28,322 nucleotides of DNA from a virus. The notes under the pieces were generated by a model. It ran no database searches, was not told where the DNA came from, and worked only from the letters and a program-made list of their open reading frames with translations. Position 1 is the first letter of the stretch, and the number at the start of each line of letters is the position of its first letter. The position numbers were made by a program, and so were the translations under genes. The stretch spans positions 1-28,322 of the IMG/VR virus record IMGVR_UViG_3300006919_000308. One strand, written 5' to 3'. Positions 2,783 through 9,959 of this stretch are shown here, one piece after another.

Positions 2783-3892
2783 ATGCCAATTCAACAATTG
2801 CAGCATGGCCATGGTGTGTCTATTACACCGAATGACAACGCCTATATTTGGCAGCAACTATTCTATACCTATAAGGTTTACACTACACTGTATGTAGGCG
2901 GTGCGGGAGACCTGCACGTCTTGACGGCTGGTGGCGATGACATCACGTTTAGCTCAGTCCCTGCTGGAACATTCCTTCCCGTCCATGTGGCAAAGGTCTT
3001 TGCTAGTGGCACGACTGCTACGGGGATCATAGCCCTTGACATCACAACGCAGCCTACTGATTTTACTGGCTTGCTTGACACTTATAGTGGTGCAGCAGCT
3101 GCGTACTCTTTGCGTCAGTTGTCATCATCTTACTCTGGTAGTGCTATCCGTGTCCGCAGATCCTCCGACAACGCAGAGCAGGATATCGGCTTCGCATCTA
3201 ATGAGTTAGATACGACCGCCTTGACTGCCTTCTGCGGTGCTGGTAATGGCTTTGTCACAACTTGGTATGACCAAAGTGGAAATAGCAATGATGCAACTCA
3301 AACAACAGCAGCGAGTCAGCCGCAGATAGTTAGTAGTGGGAGTGTAATAACGGAAAATGGGAAGCCGAGTGTGCAGTTTGATGGGAGTAATGATTTTGTT
3401 CAGCACGCTGCCATTTCAGGTTCTGCTTTTAGCGGTTTTGCCGTATCTTCGGGTATTTACACAGCGTTTGGTGCGGTTATAAGTTCAAGGAAAAATCTTG
3501 GAGCTTTTACTCAAAATGGTTATGTTGTTCTGTATGGTGACGATTCTCCCACAAATACTTTTTTTGGTCAAACCAGAGATGGCACAACTTTTCAAATATC
3601 TCAATTTACAAATGGTCCAACAACGCAGCAATTAATCTCACTTATAAATGATAGTTTTGGAATCGGCTCAAGTACGCAAACATTATATCAAAACAATGTA
3701 CAAAAGGCAACTAACTCAACATATAATCCGATTTCGTATAGTGTTACAAATCAATATTGTATAGGCGCTGATAATTCAACCGGGAACTTTCTTAATGGCA
3801 AGATACAAGAAGTAATATTGTACACCTCTAATCAAATGAGTAACACAAATGGCATAAATAACAACATAAACGACTTTTATTCTATATACTAA
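2783..3892 (+). CDS. Tail fibre: spike-base domain plus lectin-like (GH54/LamG-type) domain
   Basis: 369 residues. Residues 1-90 resemble the GTA 'spike base protein RCAP_Rcc01079' type (LYVGGAGDLHVLTAGGDDI, then PAGTFLPVHVAKVFASGTTA). The same domain makes up the whole protein at 4144. From about residue 93 it resembles the catalytic-fold domain of alpha-L-arabinofuranosidase B (GH54, a concanavalin-type jelly roll): AAYSLRQLSS, AIRVRRSSDNAEQDIGF, VTTWYDQSGNSNDATQ near 161 and GKPSVQFDGSNDFV near 196. I cannot confirm catalytic residues, so glycan binding is as likely as hydrolysis. The C-terminus is Asn-rich. Base composition becomes more AT-rich after about 3330, hinting that the distal part was exchanged. 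Probably a receptor-binding tail protein. Confidence 0.75.
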   Translation: MPIQQLQHGHGVSITPNDNAYIWQQLFYTYKVYTTLYVGGAGDLHVLTAGGDDITFSSVPAGTFLPVHVAKVFASGTTATGIIALDITTQPTDFTGLLDTYSGAAAAYSLRQLSSSYSGSAIRVRRSSDNAEQDIGFASNELDTTALTAFCGAGNGFVTTWYDQSGNSNDATQTTAASQPQIVSSGSVITENGKPSVQFDGSNDFVQHAAISGSAFSGFAVSSGIYTAFGAVISSRKNLGAFTQNGYVVLYGDDSPTNTFFGQTRDGTTFQISQFTNGPTTQQLISLINDSFGIGSSTQTLYQNNVQKATNSTYNPISYSVTNQYCIGADNSTGNFLNGKIQEVILYTSNQMSNTNGINNNINDFYSIY

Positions 3893-4143: not shown

Positions 4144-4398
4144 ATGTATCAGAAACTTCAAGTCGGAAGGGCAGCGTCTGTCACCCCTAGCGACACTGTA
4201 GATATCCCATCGGTAACTGGCGGAACTAACAACGGCTGCGTCTTGTATGTAGGCGGATACGGAGACATTAAGGTTCGCACCATTGGTGGAGATGACATTA
4301 TATTTGCTGGCGTCCTTGGTGGAACCTTTATGCCCATACAGGTGATTAAGGTTTACGCTACTGGAACCAGCGCAACTGACATCGTAGCCCTTTGGTAA
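4144..4398 (+). CDS. Spike-base-like protein (RCAP_Rcc01079 type)
   Basis: 84 residues that are essentially one domain, matching residues ~1-90 of the 2783 fibre: YVGGYGDIKVRTIGGDDIIF, GGTFMPIQVIKVYATGTSAT, ending DIVALW. This is the pattern of the small spike base protein family known from gene transfer agents (LYVGxxGdlxVxxxGGxxVtFxxVpaGtxlPixVxrVxaTGTtAtxIVAL). It may form a beta-rich base to which spikes or fibres attach. The start is fixed by the promoter ending 4 nt upstream. It is followed after 1 nt by a large fibre gene. Confidence 0.75.
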   Translation: MYQKLQVGRAASVTPSDTVDIPSVTGGTNNGCVLYVGGYGDIKVRTIGGDDIIFAGVLGGTFMPIQVIKVYATGTSATDIVALW

Positions 4399-4399
4399 T

Positions 4400-6253
4400 A
4401 TGCAGATAGTAAACGCCATTGTAGGACAGGTGGCGTCCTGGACCAAGGGCGTCATTACTAGCTACTTTGCTAGGGTAAAGGCTGGCGGCTATCCAGCCGA
4501 GGCGCCTCAGTGCGTTCAGTCGGAAATCAACTCCCAGCCACTTCTAGATCAAGCATCCTTTGTTTTAATCCCATCGGGGTATAAAGAAGACATTGTCTAT
4601 TCACAAAAACCCACAGACGGAAGCGGAGATTTGACGTTCACCCGTGCGAGTGACGGCACCCGTGTAAATTCTGCGGGGTATGTTGAAAATGTGCCTTGGA
4701 ATTTAGCGTTGTATTCGGAGGATTTAGACAGTTGGAATGATTCAAACGGCACAAGTACGAACAACCAAACCATAAGCCCAGACGGAACGCAAAACGCTGG
4801 TAAGTTTACCCCAACTGCGTCAAGTGCGAACACAAGAACTTTTTTTTCCGTTACAAGTGGCTCAAATTACACTATGAGCGTGTATTTGAAAAAAGCGGGT
4901 ATTGATGAGGTGCAAGTGGATTTGGCTAATAGTGATTTTGGTGATGCCAATGTTGTTGTAAACCTAACAAGCGGAACAATTACGGCAACTGGTGGCGATA
5001 ACATAAGCCAAAACATAACAAGTGTAGGAAATGAATGGTATTTAGTTTCTTTGACCGCGTTATCAACCGCAACGAATGCCAGTTCCCCTTTAATTATTAG
5101 AAACAATCTTGGCTACGATGGTTCAAGTGGGTTTTACATCTGGGGCGCACAAGCCGTTTTAGGCTCAACCGCAAAGCCCTACTTCCCCACCACTGACCGC
5201 CAAAATGTCCCCCGTTTGACTTATGAGGGAGGGTGTCCGAGTTTGTTGCTTGAGCCGCAGAGGACTAATCTTGTAAAGCAGTCAGAATACTTTACTGTTC
5301 CACCTTGGTCGGAATATGTTTTTGGAGGTGCTTCGCTTACTCGCACATTTGGTTATGAGTCTCCTGAAGGAAATAATAATGCTTACAAATTTGATGTTGT
5401 TGTCGGAACAGGTGGTGTATTGCTAACCGATAATATCACAATTAATCCTGCCAATGCTCAAACTTTAAGCGTTTGGATGAAAGGCGAAAATGGTGGAGAA
5501 AAGGTATTGTTAGCATTACGAAATTCAGCGTCAGCAGGTACTTCTGGAAATATAATAACCTTAACAAGTGAATGGGCAAGATATGATGTAACATTAACGA
5601 CTGATGCTGCTGATAGAGGATTCCAATTTAGAATGTTAAGTTCTAATGGTGTCGTTGACCAAACGATATATGTCTACGGAGCGCAACTTGAAGAAGGAAG
5701 TTATGCAACAAGTTACATACCTACCTATGGTAGTAGTGTAACGAGGTTAGCAGATGTTGCTTATAAGACGGGTATTAGTTCGTTGATTGGGCAGACGGAG
5801 GGGACGATGTTATTGGATTGTGAAATACTTACAACTGACACACAAGATTTGTTGAGCATTCGCCCAGGGGGTACAAGTTCGGTGGTAATAGGCACGGCAT
5901 CAAATTTAATTTTGGGGTATGTCATTGAAGGCGCAACCATAATTTCAATGAATTTTGCAAATTACGCAATTAATACACGCTATAAAATTGCAATTGCTTA
6001 CAAGAACGGAGATTGTGCGTTGTATGTAAACGGAACACAAGCCGACACCGATACAACCGCGTTTACTTTTTCAACAGAATTAAGTACTTTGTATTTAGGT
6101 CAATCGCAATACTTTGGTAAATCTTCGTATAAAAATAACGAAGTTGTACTTTTCAAAACCCGCCTAACCAACGATCAACTGGAAGTCCTCACGGGCGATT
6201 CATACCCATCTTATATCGCAATGGCTGATGCCTTAACTTATTACTATGACTAA
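4400..6253 (+). CDS. Large LamG-type tail fibre, copy A
   Basis: 617 residues. An N-terminal region of ~75 residues is probably the attachment part. Module 1 (about 78-275) starts at LTFTRASDGTRVNSAGYVEN and reads as a carbohydrate-binding beta-sandwich. A linker KPYFPTTDRQNVPRL leads to LLLEPQRTNL (~282-291) and module 2. A C-terminal LamG/concanavalin-type domain begins near 455 (GQTEGTMLLD, then ALYVNGTQ and LYLGQSQYFG). The 6246 gene has the same order with low overall identity but conserved junctions. These tail-protein signatures (ASDGTRV, LLLEPQRTNL, GQTEGT) are familiar from Bacteroidota phages. Role: probably binding of surface glycans. Codon use after about 4560 is more AT-rich than the phage core genes, suggesting exchange. 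Confidence 0.75.
   Translation: MQIVNAIVGQVASWTKGVITSYFARVKAGGYPAEAPQCVQSEINSQPLLDQASFVLIPSGYKEDIVYSQKPTDGSGDLTFTRASDGTRVNSAGYVENVPWNLALYSEDLDSWNDSNGTSTNNQTISPDGTQNAGKFTPTASSANTRTFFSVTSGSNYTMSVYLKKAGIDEVQVDLANSDFGDANVVVNLTSGTITATGGDNISQNITSVGNEWYLVSLTALSTATNASSPLIIRNNLGYDGSSGFYIWGAQAVLGSTAKPYFPTTDRQNVPRLTYEGGCPSLLLEPQRTNLVKQSEYFTVPPWSEYVFGGASLTRTFGYESPEGNNNAYKFDVVVGTGGVLLTDNITINPANAQTLSVWMKGENGGEKVLLALRNSASAGTSGNIITLTSEWARYDVTLTTDAADRGFQFRMLSSNGVVDQTIYVYGAQLEEGSYATSYIPTYGSSVTRLADVAYKTGISSLIGQTEGTMLLDCEILTTDTQDLLSIRPGGTSSVVIGTASNLILGYVIEGATIISMNFANYAINTRYKIAIAYKNGDCALYVNGTQADTDTTAFTFSTELSTLYLGQSQYFGKSSYKNNEVVLFKTRLTNDQLEVLTGDSYPSYIAMADALTYYYD
5243..5265 (+). repeat. 23-bp repeat between fibre paralogues, copy 1
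   Basis: TTGTTGCTTGAGCCGCAGAG plus GAC is identical to 6957-6979. It encodes the conserved junction LLLEPQRT between modules. The flanks differ immediately on both sides. Confidence 0.9.
5789..5808 (+). repeat. 20-bp repeat between fibre paralogues, copy 1
   Basis: GGGCAGACGGAGGGGACGAT is identical to 7569-7588 and encodes GQTEGT at the entry to the C-terminal LamG-like domain. Surrounding DNA diverges. Confidence 0.9.
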
Positions 6254-7997
6254 TCCAAGTTTACAAATCGGAGACGGCAACTGGGCATACAAAGAGGACA
6301 ACCTTTTAGGCTATGCCATTAGCCCCGTCAATAATAAATTCCTACCCCGTGAGATGACCTTCACCCGTGCCTCTGATGGTACGAGAGTGAACGAAGATGG
6401 GTTGGTTGAAAATGTGCCGTTTAACTTGTTGGAGCAGAGTAATAGTTTTGATACAAGCCCTTGGTCAACAGCAAACGCAAGTGTAACGGGAGGACAATCG
6501 GGTTATGATGATTCTTCCGATGCTTGGTTAATTGAATCAACAAGTGCCAATGGTCGTGTAGACCAATCTGTTTCAAAAAGTGGAGTTCAAACTTTTAGCG
6601 TATATGCCAAAGCAGGAAATTCTAATTGGGTTAGATTGCGTTCAGATTATATTGGTGCAAATGCAGATGCTTATTTTGATTTGCAAAATGGAGTTGTTGG
6701 TTCAAGTTATAATGTAATCACAACACAAATTGATTCTGTTGGTAATGGATGGTATCGGTGTAGTGTGGTTTTCAATCAATCAATCACAGTTGTTCGTATT
6801 TATACAACATCCGCCAACAATAGTGCTGGTGGCTCTGGTAATAGTGCATACATCCAAGACGCACAACTAAACACAGGCAGCACCGTCAAACCCTACTTCC
6901 CAACAACCAATCGCCAAGATGTACCTCGCATAGATTATTCAAGTGGAACTGGGGCGTTGTTGCTTGAGCCGCAGAGGACGAATTTGGTGACATCTAGTGA
7001 GCAGTTTGACAATGGGGCTTGGGGTAAAAATCGTTGTGTTGCAACGGCAAACACTACAACAAGCCCAGACGGATATATTAATGCTGATACCTTAACATCC
7101 AATAACTCACTGGAATCTTATGCTGAAATAGCTGCCACACCAACGGCATCGCAAGTAGCGTATAGTTTTTTTGCAAAAAAGAACAACGCAAACTTTGTGC
7201 ATTCTTTGGCTTGGGATAGGGTAGCAAATGGCGCACGGCAATGGTTTGACATTCAAAATGGAACTGTTGGTTCTTCTACTACATTTGGAACTGGTTATAG
7301 TGTTGCATCTGCGTCTATTGTAGATTATGGAAATGGATGGTTTAGGTGCATTACGATTTACAATGTGACAAGCGGAGTTACCAATGGATTTAGGGTTTCA
7401 TTGTCTACAGCCAACGCTGATACAAATAGCCCAATAGGTACCGCACAATACTTTTGGGGCGCACAACTCGAAGCAGGTTCCTACCCCACCTCCTACATCC
7501 CCACAACATCCTCATCTGTGACCCGTTTGGCTGACGCTTGTTACCGAACTGGCATCAGCGAGTATATCGGGCAGACGGAGGGGACGATTTTTGTTGAGAT
7601 AAATGCTATTGATGTTACGGATTCTCGTGTAACAATAAGCGATGGAACAAGTTCAAACCGATTGATTTTAAGAATCCACTTTAATGGAAAAATTCAATGG
7701 GAAGGTGTCCAAGGTGGAACAGATGAATGGAATATAGAGAGTTCAATCGGTACCATTGTAAGCGGTTCAACTTATAAAATAGCAGCAGCGTATGGCACGA
7801 ACAATGTTGCTTTGTATGCAAATGGAACGCAAATAGGGGTGGATAATTCCGCAGTAGTTACAAGCGCATTAAGTATTTTAAGATTTGCTAATGCGGCTGG
7901 TGGTACACTTTATCATTGGAATCAATATACAAAACAAGCCGTCCTATTCAAAACCCGCCTTTCAAACACCGAATTAGCCGCCCTAACAACTTTATAA
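6246..7997 (+). CDS. Large LamG-type tail fibre, copy B (paralogue of the 4400 gene)
   Basis: 583 residues. The N-terminal segment (~36 residues: QIGDGNWAYKEDNLLGYAIS) differs from copy A. From residue 37 the order is the same: MTFTRASDGTRVNEDGLVEN, a beta-rich module, KPYFPTTNRQDVPRI, LLLEPQRTNL (238-247), a second module, then TRLADACYRTGISEYIGQTE (near 440) and a LamG-like domain with ALYANGTQIG and a conserved AVLFKTRLSNTELAALT end. It overlaps copy A by 8 nt in another frame. Two tandem receptor-binding genes with conserved junctions and diverged bodies suggest duplication with later module exchange. Both may be used together, or one could be a spare for a different host glycan; I cannot tell which. 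Confidence 0.75.
   Translation: MTNPSLQIGDGNWAYKEDNLLGYAISPVNNKFLPREMTFTRASDGTRVNEDGLVENVPFNLLEQSNSFDTSPWSTANASVTGGQSGYDDSSDAWLIESTSANGRVDQSVSKSGVQTFSVYAKAGNSNWVRLRSDYIGANADAYFDLQNGVVGSSYNVITTQIDSVGNGWYRCSVVFNQSITVVRIYTTSANNSAGGSGNSAYIQDAQLNTGSTVKPYFPTTNRQDVPRIDYSSGTGALLLEPQRTNLVTSSEQFDNGAWGKNRCVATANTTTSPDGYINADTLTSNNSLESYAEIAATPTASQVAYSFFAKKNNANFVHSLAWDRVANGARQWFDIQNGTVGSSTTFGTGYSVASASIVDYGNGWFRCITIYNVTSGVTNGFRVSLSTANADTNSPIGTAQYFWGAQLEAGSYPTSYIPTTSSSVTRLADACYRTGISEYIGQTEGTIFVEINAIDVTDSRVTISDGTSSNRLILRIHFNGKIQWEGVQGGTDEWNIESSIGTIVSGSTYKIAAAYGTNNVALYANGTQIGVDNSAVVTSALSILRFANAAGGTLYHWNQYTKQAVLFKTRLSNTELAALTTL
6957..6979 (+). repeat. 23-bp repeat between fibre paralogues, copy 2
   Basis: Identical to 5243-5265; same protein junction (LLLEPQRT) in the same frame position of the second fibre. 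Confidence 0.9.
7569..7588 (+). repeat. 20-bp repeat between fibre paralogues, copy 2
   Basis: Identical to 5789-5808; encodes GQTEGT before the C-terminal LamG-like domain of the second fibre. Confidence 0.9.
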
Positions 7998-9225: not shown

Positions 9226-9405
9226 ATGAACTACTTGGTTGGTCAGTCTATCTTAAATAACAACTATACGATAGAGGAAATCAGCCACGAGAGTGATGGA
9301 TCTGTATCCATTTGGATTAGGAACACAGAGAGAAATGAGATATTGCGTTGGAAGAGATTTAACTCAAATATGCCAGTGTCTTTTGAGTTCAATATAGATT
9401 TTTAA
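9226..9405 (+). CDS. Small conserved phage protein, unknown
   Basis: 59 residues from ATG 9226 (MNYLVGQSILNNNYTIEEIS). In-frame starts at 9181 (ATG) and 9202 (GTG) would add up to 15 residues and overlap the previous gene; the 9226 start is preferred because similar proteins, as I recall them, begin 'M.Y.(V/I)GQ', and it leaves a 13-nt gap after the previous stop. The C-terminus LRWKRFNSNMPVSFEFNIDF is a conserved-looking block. Small beta-rich protein; no membrane segment; function unknown. The stop overlaps the next ATG by 1 nt. Confidence 0.6.
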   Translation: MNYLVGQSILNNNYTIEEISHESDGSVSIWIRNTERNEILRWKRFNSNMPVSFEFNIDF

Positions 9406-9959
9406 TGAAGTCTACTTTCTATTTTTTAGTCATCCCATTGAACGGGGACGAATTCATGCGTCAAACAAAAGACGGCTTGATTGTCAATGCCAACATTGAC
9501 GACCATAAGTCAACGCAAAGATTGGCTAAGGTGCTTGCTTGTCCAGAAGGAACGGGTGTAGAAGAGGGTGATATATTGCTTGTACATCACAATATCTTTA
9601 GACCGTATTACGACATGAAGGGTAGACTAAGAAAGAGCAGCAACCTAGTAAAGGACAAGTTGTATTATGTCGAACCAGAGCGTGTATATATGTATATCCG
9701 TGATGGAAAAGAATACGTCTTTGGAGACTATTCATTCATAAAGCCAGTCAATAAGGATATGGATGGCTTCCAATATTCAACTAATGTGGAAAAGGAGATG
9801 ATTGGTGAAGTAGCATTGATTGAGCCTTCGTTCTCCGAGCAAGAGGAGGTTAGTATTGGCGATGTCATTACATTTACGAAGGACAGCGAGTATGAGTTTA
9901 GGATTAACGATGAGCGGTTCTATCGTGTACCAACTAAAAACATAGTAGCAGTATTATGA
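9405..9959 (+). CDS. GroES-like (co-chaperonin fold) protein
   Basis: 184 residues. One segment (about 38-97: KVLACPEGTGVEEGDILLVH through KLYYVEPERVYMYI) and the C-terminal part (about 132-184: GEVALIEPSFSEQEEVSIGD, ITFTKDSEYEFRINDERFYR, then VPTKNIVAVL) show the cpn10 pattern of 'G.V......G..(V/I)..GD.(V/I)....' ending in a hydrophobic '.I.AV(L/I)'. Phage GroES analogues (T4 gp31, RB49 CocO) help the host GroEL fold the capsid protein; a similar role is possible, but the protein is longer than GroES (~95 aa) and its first segment is unusual. It precedes the terminase genes with an ATGA overlap. Confidence 0.55.
   Translation: MKSTFYFLVIPLNGDEFMRQTKDGLIVNANIDDHKSTQRLAKVLACPEGTGVEEGDILLVHHNIFRPYYDMKGRLRKSSNLVKDKLYYVEPERVYMYIRDGKEYVFGDYSFIKPVNKDMDGFQYSTNVEKEMIGEVALIEPSFSEQEEVSIGDVITFTKDSEYEFRINDERFYRVPTKNIVAVL

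Follow-up and report, generated by a model that had tools for sequence, protein, structure and literature searches.

We analyzed a 28,322-nt stretch of viral DNA (IMG/VR record IMGVR_UViG_3300006919_000308, positions 1 to 28,322; hereafter the window, known to be a fragment) that encodes two adjacent tail fibre paralogues, fibre genes 1 and 2. Short blocks of identical DNA shared by these genes are the cores of longer connectors, which a predicted structure places at the borders between domains, and comparison with related phages reveals many recent replacements of single domains as cassettes bounded by such connectors. Our preferred interpretation, to which we assign a probability of about 0.8, is that these are modular, probably glycan-binding fibres whose connectors serve cassette replacement by homologous recombination between phages. 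We infer that the crossovers occur inside the connectors through homology, and not elsewhere with selection for in-frame joins at domain borders. By analogy with characterized proteins, the domains would bind glycans on the host surface, and swapping them may alter host range.

In the proposed mechanism, each fibre protein would comprise an N-terminal part, domain 1, domain 2 and a C-terminal ConA/LamG-like domain. Short connectors lie at the predicted domain borders, and the exact blocks form their conserved cores. In many aquatic phages connector DNA stays alike even where the domains have diverged or been replaced, which makes cassette exchange by homologous recombination possible: crossover at two connectors would replace one domain as a cassette and keep both the reading frame and the fold. 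The exchange partners would be different phages and sometimes, perhaps, tandem copies.

Identical blocks form the cores of longer connectors

The two fibre proteins are 38% identical across 528 aligned residues, and their genes share a 23-mer (anchor 1), a 20-mer (anchor 2) and the 14-mer TTCAAAACCCGCCT (anchor 3). An earlier note on this DNA had reported these three blocks, and all prove to be exact at the coordinates in Table 1. Anchors 1 and 2 each have exactly two copies in the window, and 0 of 100 dinucleotide-preserving shuffles gave a match to them. The blocks are read in frame and encode the conserved motifs LLLEPQRT, GQTEGT[M/I] and LFKTRL, respectively. The placement of the two longer blocks at module junctions, also asserted earlier, agrees with the structure predicted for the gene 2 product, in which all three anchors fall at borders of beta-sandwich domains (anchor 1 corresponds to residues 238-245). 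The claim that DNA identity is found solely at these border blocks was too narrow: the blocks sit in longer, weaker connectors, with 74% identity, for example, between 5161-5214 and 6875-6928. Homology to other phages delimits connectors of ~70-160 nt (4547-4704, 5161-5269 and 5738-5818), plus a 3′ connector from 7931 on.

At silent positions, the connectors are unusually well conserved. Within blocks 1 and 2, all 13 testable codons (degenerate and encoding the same residue) agree between fibre genes 1 and 2, compared with 34% in other connector parts and 47% in modules. With the window's codon usage and the identical residues taken as given, the chance of full codon identity is ~4e-4 for block 1 and ~2e-3 for block 2, values that are somewhat flattering because the longest runs were chosen post hoc. 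Between phages, silent-codon identity at fourfold-or-more degenerate sites is mostly 0.6-0.8 in connector 1, against ~0.3 in backbone genes. In the connector at 5161-5269 it reaches 0.73-0.83 among near relatives, whose backbone genes stand at 0.23-0.37. With silent-site identity this far above backbone genes, the connectors are far more alike than genome-wide descent would give.

Exact identity in otherwise diverged paralogues of one genome could also arise from recent gene conversion or partial duplication confined to this phage's tandem genes, and two contigs described below (L074 and L075) do resemble the crossover product of a tandem pair. We consider such a local origin quite improbable, because a match inside a single genome requires no local event when the same DNA is shared so widely: at least 119 other viral stretches contain the core 18-mer of anchor 2, GGGCAGACGGAGGGGACG, and 17 contain a 20-mer of anchor 1. 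A bacterial reservoir of anchor 2 was rejected, since 257 Gb of bacterial genomes yielded 16 exact 18-mers, near chance, none of them in a fibre frame. Among isolate phages, a 54-residue junction peptide gave no match, and a connector DNA query retrieved three records only, all in the part preceding GQTEGT. We found no description of these anchors in the open-licence literature.

Cassette replacements in related phages

Around anchor 2, the DNA conserved among related genes forms an island that spans about -110 to +25 nt, with sharp loss of identity on both sides, and a next island starts at about +350 nt. After deduplication, genes with both flanks include 94 pairs that are at least 80% identical upstream with no detectable match downstream, and 58 pairs that show the opposite. 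Without deduplication, 46 pairs reach 99% identity or more upstream of anchor 2, and 15 of these are unrelated downstream; 54 pairs reach this level downstream, and 15 of them are unrelated upstream. Of the 30 swap pairs listed, 24 regain homology between +337 and +378 nt, where the window has its 14-base block (at +363 and +378); a cassette of ~100 residues has therefore been replaced inside a conserved flank. The pair L324 and L380, for example, is 99.9% identical over 4186 nt, has no match from +33 to +369, and is then 93% identical over 1499 nt.

The edges of these cassettes coincide with the motifs. At the C-terminal cassette, identity drops right after GQTEGTIYAE and climbs ~33 nt before the TRL motif, and the drop at anchor 1, from 0.85 to 0.30, comes at +24 nt, right after LLEPQRTN. 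The contigs thus contain both natural recombinants with edges at the motifs and variable modules flanked by conserved motifs. Chimeras of metagenome assembly at shared repeats might produce such a pattern, given that every relative is an assembled contig and that the connectors are repeats common to phages, but we regard this as very improbable. In most swap pairs the outer flanks on both sides come from one lineage, which would need two coordinated false joins, and the same edges recur in many samples. Moreover, identical runs spanning the anchor in swap pairs are mostly a few to ~50 nt long (L125/L189 being an exception); runs of this length are probably below the largest k-mers used by assemblers.

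Judged from its sequence, the window is itself a mosaic whose modules each match a different phage (Table 1). Phage L002 shares domain 2 of gene 1, with homology starting at the anchor, and its other domains are only distantly related. L034 and L036 share domain 1 of gene 2, and this strong homology fades inside the connector that carries anchor 1, the adjoining domains being distantly related at most. L035 shares domain 3 of gene 2, again with homology starting at the anchor, and is only distantly related in domain 2. Another phage, L126, carries its own tandem fibre pair (anchors at 3602 and 4888 of the reverse strand). In L074 and L075, the upstream module of L126 copy 1 (97%) is joined to the downstream module of L126 copy 2 (100%), an apparent recombinant as expected from recombination across L126-type tandem genes; independent reassortment is the alternative.

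Silent sites and the choice between explanations

A different account holds that recombination is mostly illegitimate and random, that the anchors are conserved for protein needs at the borders, and that selection keeps joins made there, with DNA identity as a by-product. Consistent with this, GQTEGT, LEPQRTN and TSYIPT are near-invariant at the protein level among relatives. Synonymous variants of the blocks are common, the exact 18-mer being used by only ~20% of the GQTEGT[I/M] encoders in a codon-blind scan (120 stretches), and the ends of high-scoring segment pairs at swaps scatter over ~25 nt. However, the silent sites of the connectors are much closer than the backbone genes of the same phages, the complete agreement of block codons in the window stands against 34-47% elsewhere, and the anchor codons depart strongly from contig codon usage. 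We consider this account possible but doubtful. The earlier note had named, as observations that would speak against crossover at the blocks, their conservation at the protein level with synonymous differences in relatives, together with a lack of recombinants. The blocks are indeed conserved in this manner; recombinant genes nevertheless exist, and connector silent sites are far more alike than those elsewhere in these genomes.

Across homologous sites in ~200 loci, the silent sites of anchor 2 are shifted to G/T-ending codons, which are otherwise rare. At the two anchor 2 glycines GGG is found in 62-67% of genes (16% expected), and GAG reaches 87% (44% expected); both preferences hold in higher- and lower-GC contigs alike. 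Anchor 1 shows a similar shift toward G/T-ending codons, while the TSYIPT segment just upstream of anchor 2 has the opposite preference, for A/C-ending codons.

This bias might serve translation, with rare, Shine-Dalgarno-like codons (GGAGGGG) slowing the ribosome at the domain border for folding, or starting an internal product. The excess of GGG fits such a role, as does the likeness of GGAGGGG to a Shine-Dalgarno sequence with ATG next to it in gene 1. That ATG is found in gene 1 only, however, and 85% of genes have Ile (mostly ATT) there, so that an internal start at GGAGGGGACGATG was rejected as a general explanation. The bias extends to T-ending codons for Ile, Tyr and Asp, and a translational role leaves the swaps unexplained; overall, we find it improbable.

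Two further candidate causes of the bias were rejected. In a candidate RNA hairpin, pairing of the C-rich TSYIPT segment with the G-rich anchor was 2-3 times that of synonymous shuffles, yet overall folding was no better (mean z -0.14), and the consensus fold comprised four pairs at -0.2 kcal/mol. A high-GC donor of the anchor is at odds with the avoidance of C-ending codons at most anchor positions. The remaining ideas are maintained recombination homology and ribosome pacing. A tentative and, in our view, unlikely elaboration is that the anchors are a shared DNA-level joint: the silent sites of GQTEGTIYAEV and LLEPQRTN would be kept G/T-ending across otherwise unrelated phages by frequent exchange or by a recombination-promoting sequence, and lineages would draw receptor-binding domains from one pool. 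Features of a diversity-generating retroelement or an inversion cassette were not found: the window proteins scanned (not every open reading frame (ORF), in a fragment) include no reverse transcriptase or recombinase family, and there are no further anchor copies.

Several points weigh against homologous cassette replacement at the connectors. No recombinant between the window's own two fibre genes was found; the earlier proposal that the anchors act as crossover points for module swapping is borne out by many recent swaps in relatives with edges at the same three motifs, the window's modules included, but not for exchange between these two genes. No cycle of four-combination reassortment (two upstream by two downstream types) appeared at >=85% clustering, and the scanned part of the ORFs in this fragment includes no recognized recombination gene. 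The swaps are seen in assembled contigs, not reads, and a breakpoint could lie anywhere within a connector. Some loci were retrieved with the anchor DNA as query, a procedure that favours conserved anchors; two scans were codon-blind, however. Finally, both receptor binding by the swapped domains, which are probably what recognizes bacteria, and a change of host range are inferences.

Fibre architecture and probable function

Both fibre proteins match the profile of PHROG 5939 over a large part of their length (Table 1). The predicted structure of the gene 2 product comprises three beta-sandwich domains separated by low-confidence linkers (residues 222-241 and 422-440), with a mean predicted local distance difference test score (pLDDT) of 76.8. 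The predicted template modelling score (pTM) is 0.45, so that the arrangement of the domains is uncertain. Foldseek matched domains in this structure to the carbohydrate-binding module (CBM) family CBM40 (target-normalized template modelling score, TMt, ~0.6) and to laminin G. The ConA/LamG-like lectin fold rests on this model, the Pfam LamG_3 match of gene 1 being below cut-off. By homology to gene 2, gene 1 would comprise an N-terminal part, two lectin/CBM-like beta-sandwich domains and a C-terminal ConA/LamG-like domain.

The family profile over region 221-429, which contains domain 2, matches the head-spike fibre Rcc01080 of the Rhodobacter capsulatus gene transfer agent (RcGTA; E 5.5e-50), and the profile also matches Pseudomonas phage baseplate and tail proteins. 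The RcGTA head-spike fibre binds capsular polysaccharide (PMC10218006, PMC7296036). Because of this binding by a distant characterized relative, and because the predicted folds resemble CBM40 and laminin G, the fibre domains likely bind glycans.

Table 1 Fibre genes, domains, connectors and anchors in the window.
Feature	Coordinates	Strand	Description
Fibre gene 1	4400..6253	+	617 aa; PHROG 5939 tail protein, E 5e-51, residues 269-599
Fibre gene 2	6246..7997	+	583 aa; tandem paralogue with the same architecture; PHROG 5939, E 2.9e-71, residues 225-582
Connector 1, gene 1	4547..4704	+	...FTRASDGTRVN..G.VENVP; domain 1 starts here; DNA 80-92% identical in most near relatives (L036, 76%)
Connector 2, gene 1	5161..5269	+	KPYFPTTDRQNVPR...LLLEPQRTN; <=95% DNA identity in relatives, both neighbouring modules unrelated in DNA
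Anchor 1, gene 1 copy	5243..5265	+	LLLEPQRT; start of L002 module homology
Gene 1 domain 2	5270..5737	+	91% aa identity to L002
Anchor 2, gene 1 copy	5789..5808	+	GQTEGTM
Anchor 3, gene 1 copy	6152..6165	+	LFKTRL; 3′ border of C-terminal cassette; homology resumes here in swap pairs
Gene 2 domain 1	6411..6878	+	Residues 56-211; 90% aa identity to L034 and L036
Anchor 1, gene 2 copy	6957..6979	+	End of low-confidence linker 222-241, ahead of domain 2
Gene 2 domain 2	6981..7478	+	Family profile over the region matches RcGTA head-spike fibre Rcc01080
Anchor 2, gene 2 copy	7569..7588	+	GQTEGTI, residues 442-447; immediately before first strand of domain 3; start of L035 module homology
Gene 2 domain 3, C-terminal cassette	7581..7949	+	91% aa identity to L035
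Anchor 3, gene 2 copy	7947..7960	+	Between last strand of domain 3 and C-terminal helix

In seven phages (L199, L210, L212, L220, L226, L234 and L270), the fibres are 386-415 aa long instead of ~555-605 aa, consistent with one lectin-like domain fewer ahead of the C-terminal domain. Domain number, besides domain identity, may vary among fibres.

Elsewhere in the window, residues 105-179 of a 369-aa protein encoded at 2783-3892 match an alpha-L-arabinofuranosidase B domain (E 1.4e-10), and the protein has a weak LamG_3 match. Both its N-terminus (residues 12-84) and a separate 84-aa ORF at 4144-4398 match the tail-fibre family PHROG 12296, as if the N-terminal adaptor of the 369-aa protein were also present as a stand-alone gene. 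Between the fibre genes and the terminase, 9405-9959 encodes a GroES-like co-chaperonin (phage PHROG family, E 8.8e-18). The terminase and portal are nearest, among phages of known host, to flavobacterial podoviruses (Flavobacterium, Cellulophaga, Tenacibaculum and Maribacter), with best identities of 44-50% among the matches listed. A related genome, MW202828.1, was inspected around the terminase for orientation.

Relation to known systems and significance

Tetart, Desplats and Krisch reportedly described, in 1998 (J Mol Biol 282:543), recombination of the T-even gp38 adhesin between conserved motifs. The swapping mechanism proposed here resembles T-even adhesin swapping in that hypervariable receptor-binding segments would lie between conserved motifs and be exchanged at them; in gp38 the exchange swaps specificity, as it might here. 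The glycine-rich motifs of gp38 lie inside one adhesin (PMC12529663), whereas our anchors border whole beta-sandwich domains of another protein family. Profile searches gave no match to the gp38 family, finding PHROG 5939 and LamG/ConA-like folds instead.

Passages of Bellas et al. (2020) on cryoconite phages describe near-identical genomes whose tail-fibre domain variants are interchangeable, which is ascribed to recombination (PMC7468147). Our fibres are like the flexible genes and metagenomic islands of those phages, with domain variants interchanged between near-identical genomes. Unlike in those passages, the border anchors and cassette edges are defined here at the nucleotide level. Smug et al. 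(2023) reported recent domain shuffling, notably in tail fibres and spikes, with swaps of non-homologous C-terminal domains among the cases (PMC10684548). Theirs is a profile-level survey; here, exchange is seen in DNA of uncultivated phages and mostly involves internal cassettes with both flanks kept. The likeness to RcGTA Rcc01080 is limited to the homologous domain, a capsule binder in RcGTA: Rcc01080 is a 325-residue fibre on the capsid, and the overall architecture differs.

By analogy with the T-even adhesins, these fibres would represent a widespread new instance of such swapping in aquatic phages. They provide a nucleotide-level map, with edges placed to about ten codons, of probable receptor-binding domain exchange in common uncultivated aquatic phages. 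With such a map, one can test whether DNA homology or protein selection alone determines the crossover sites, and estimate the size of the binding-domain pool that the phages share. The anchors could also be used as primer sites for surveying domain turnover in natural samples.

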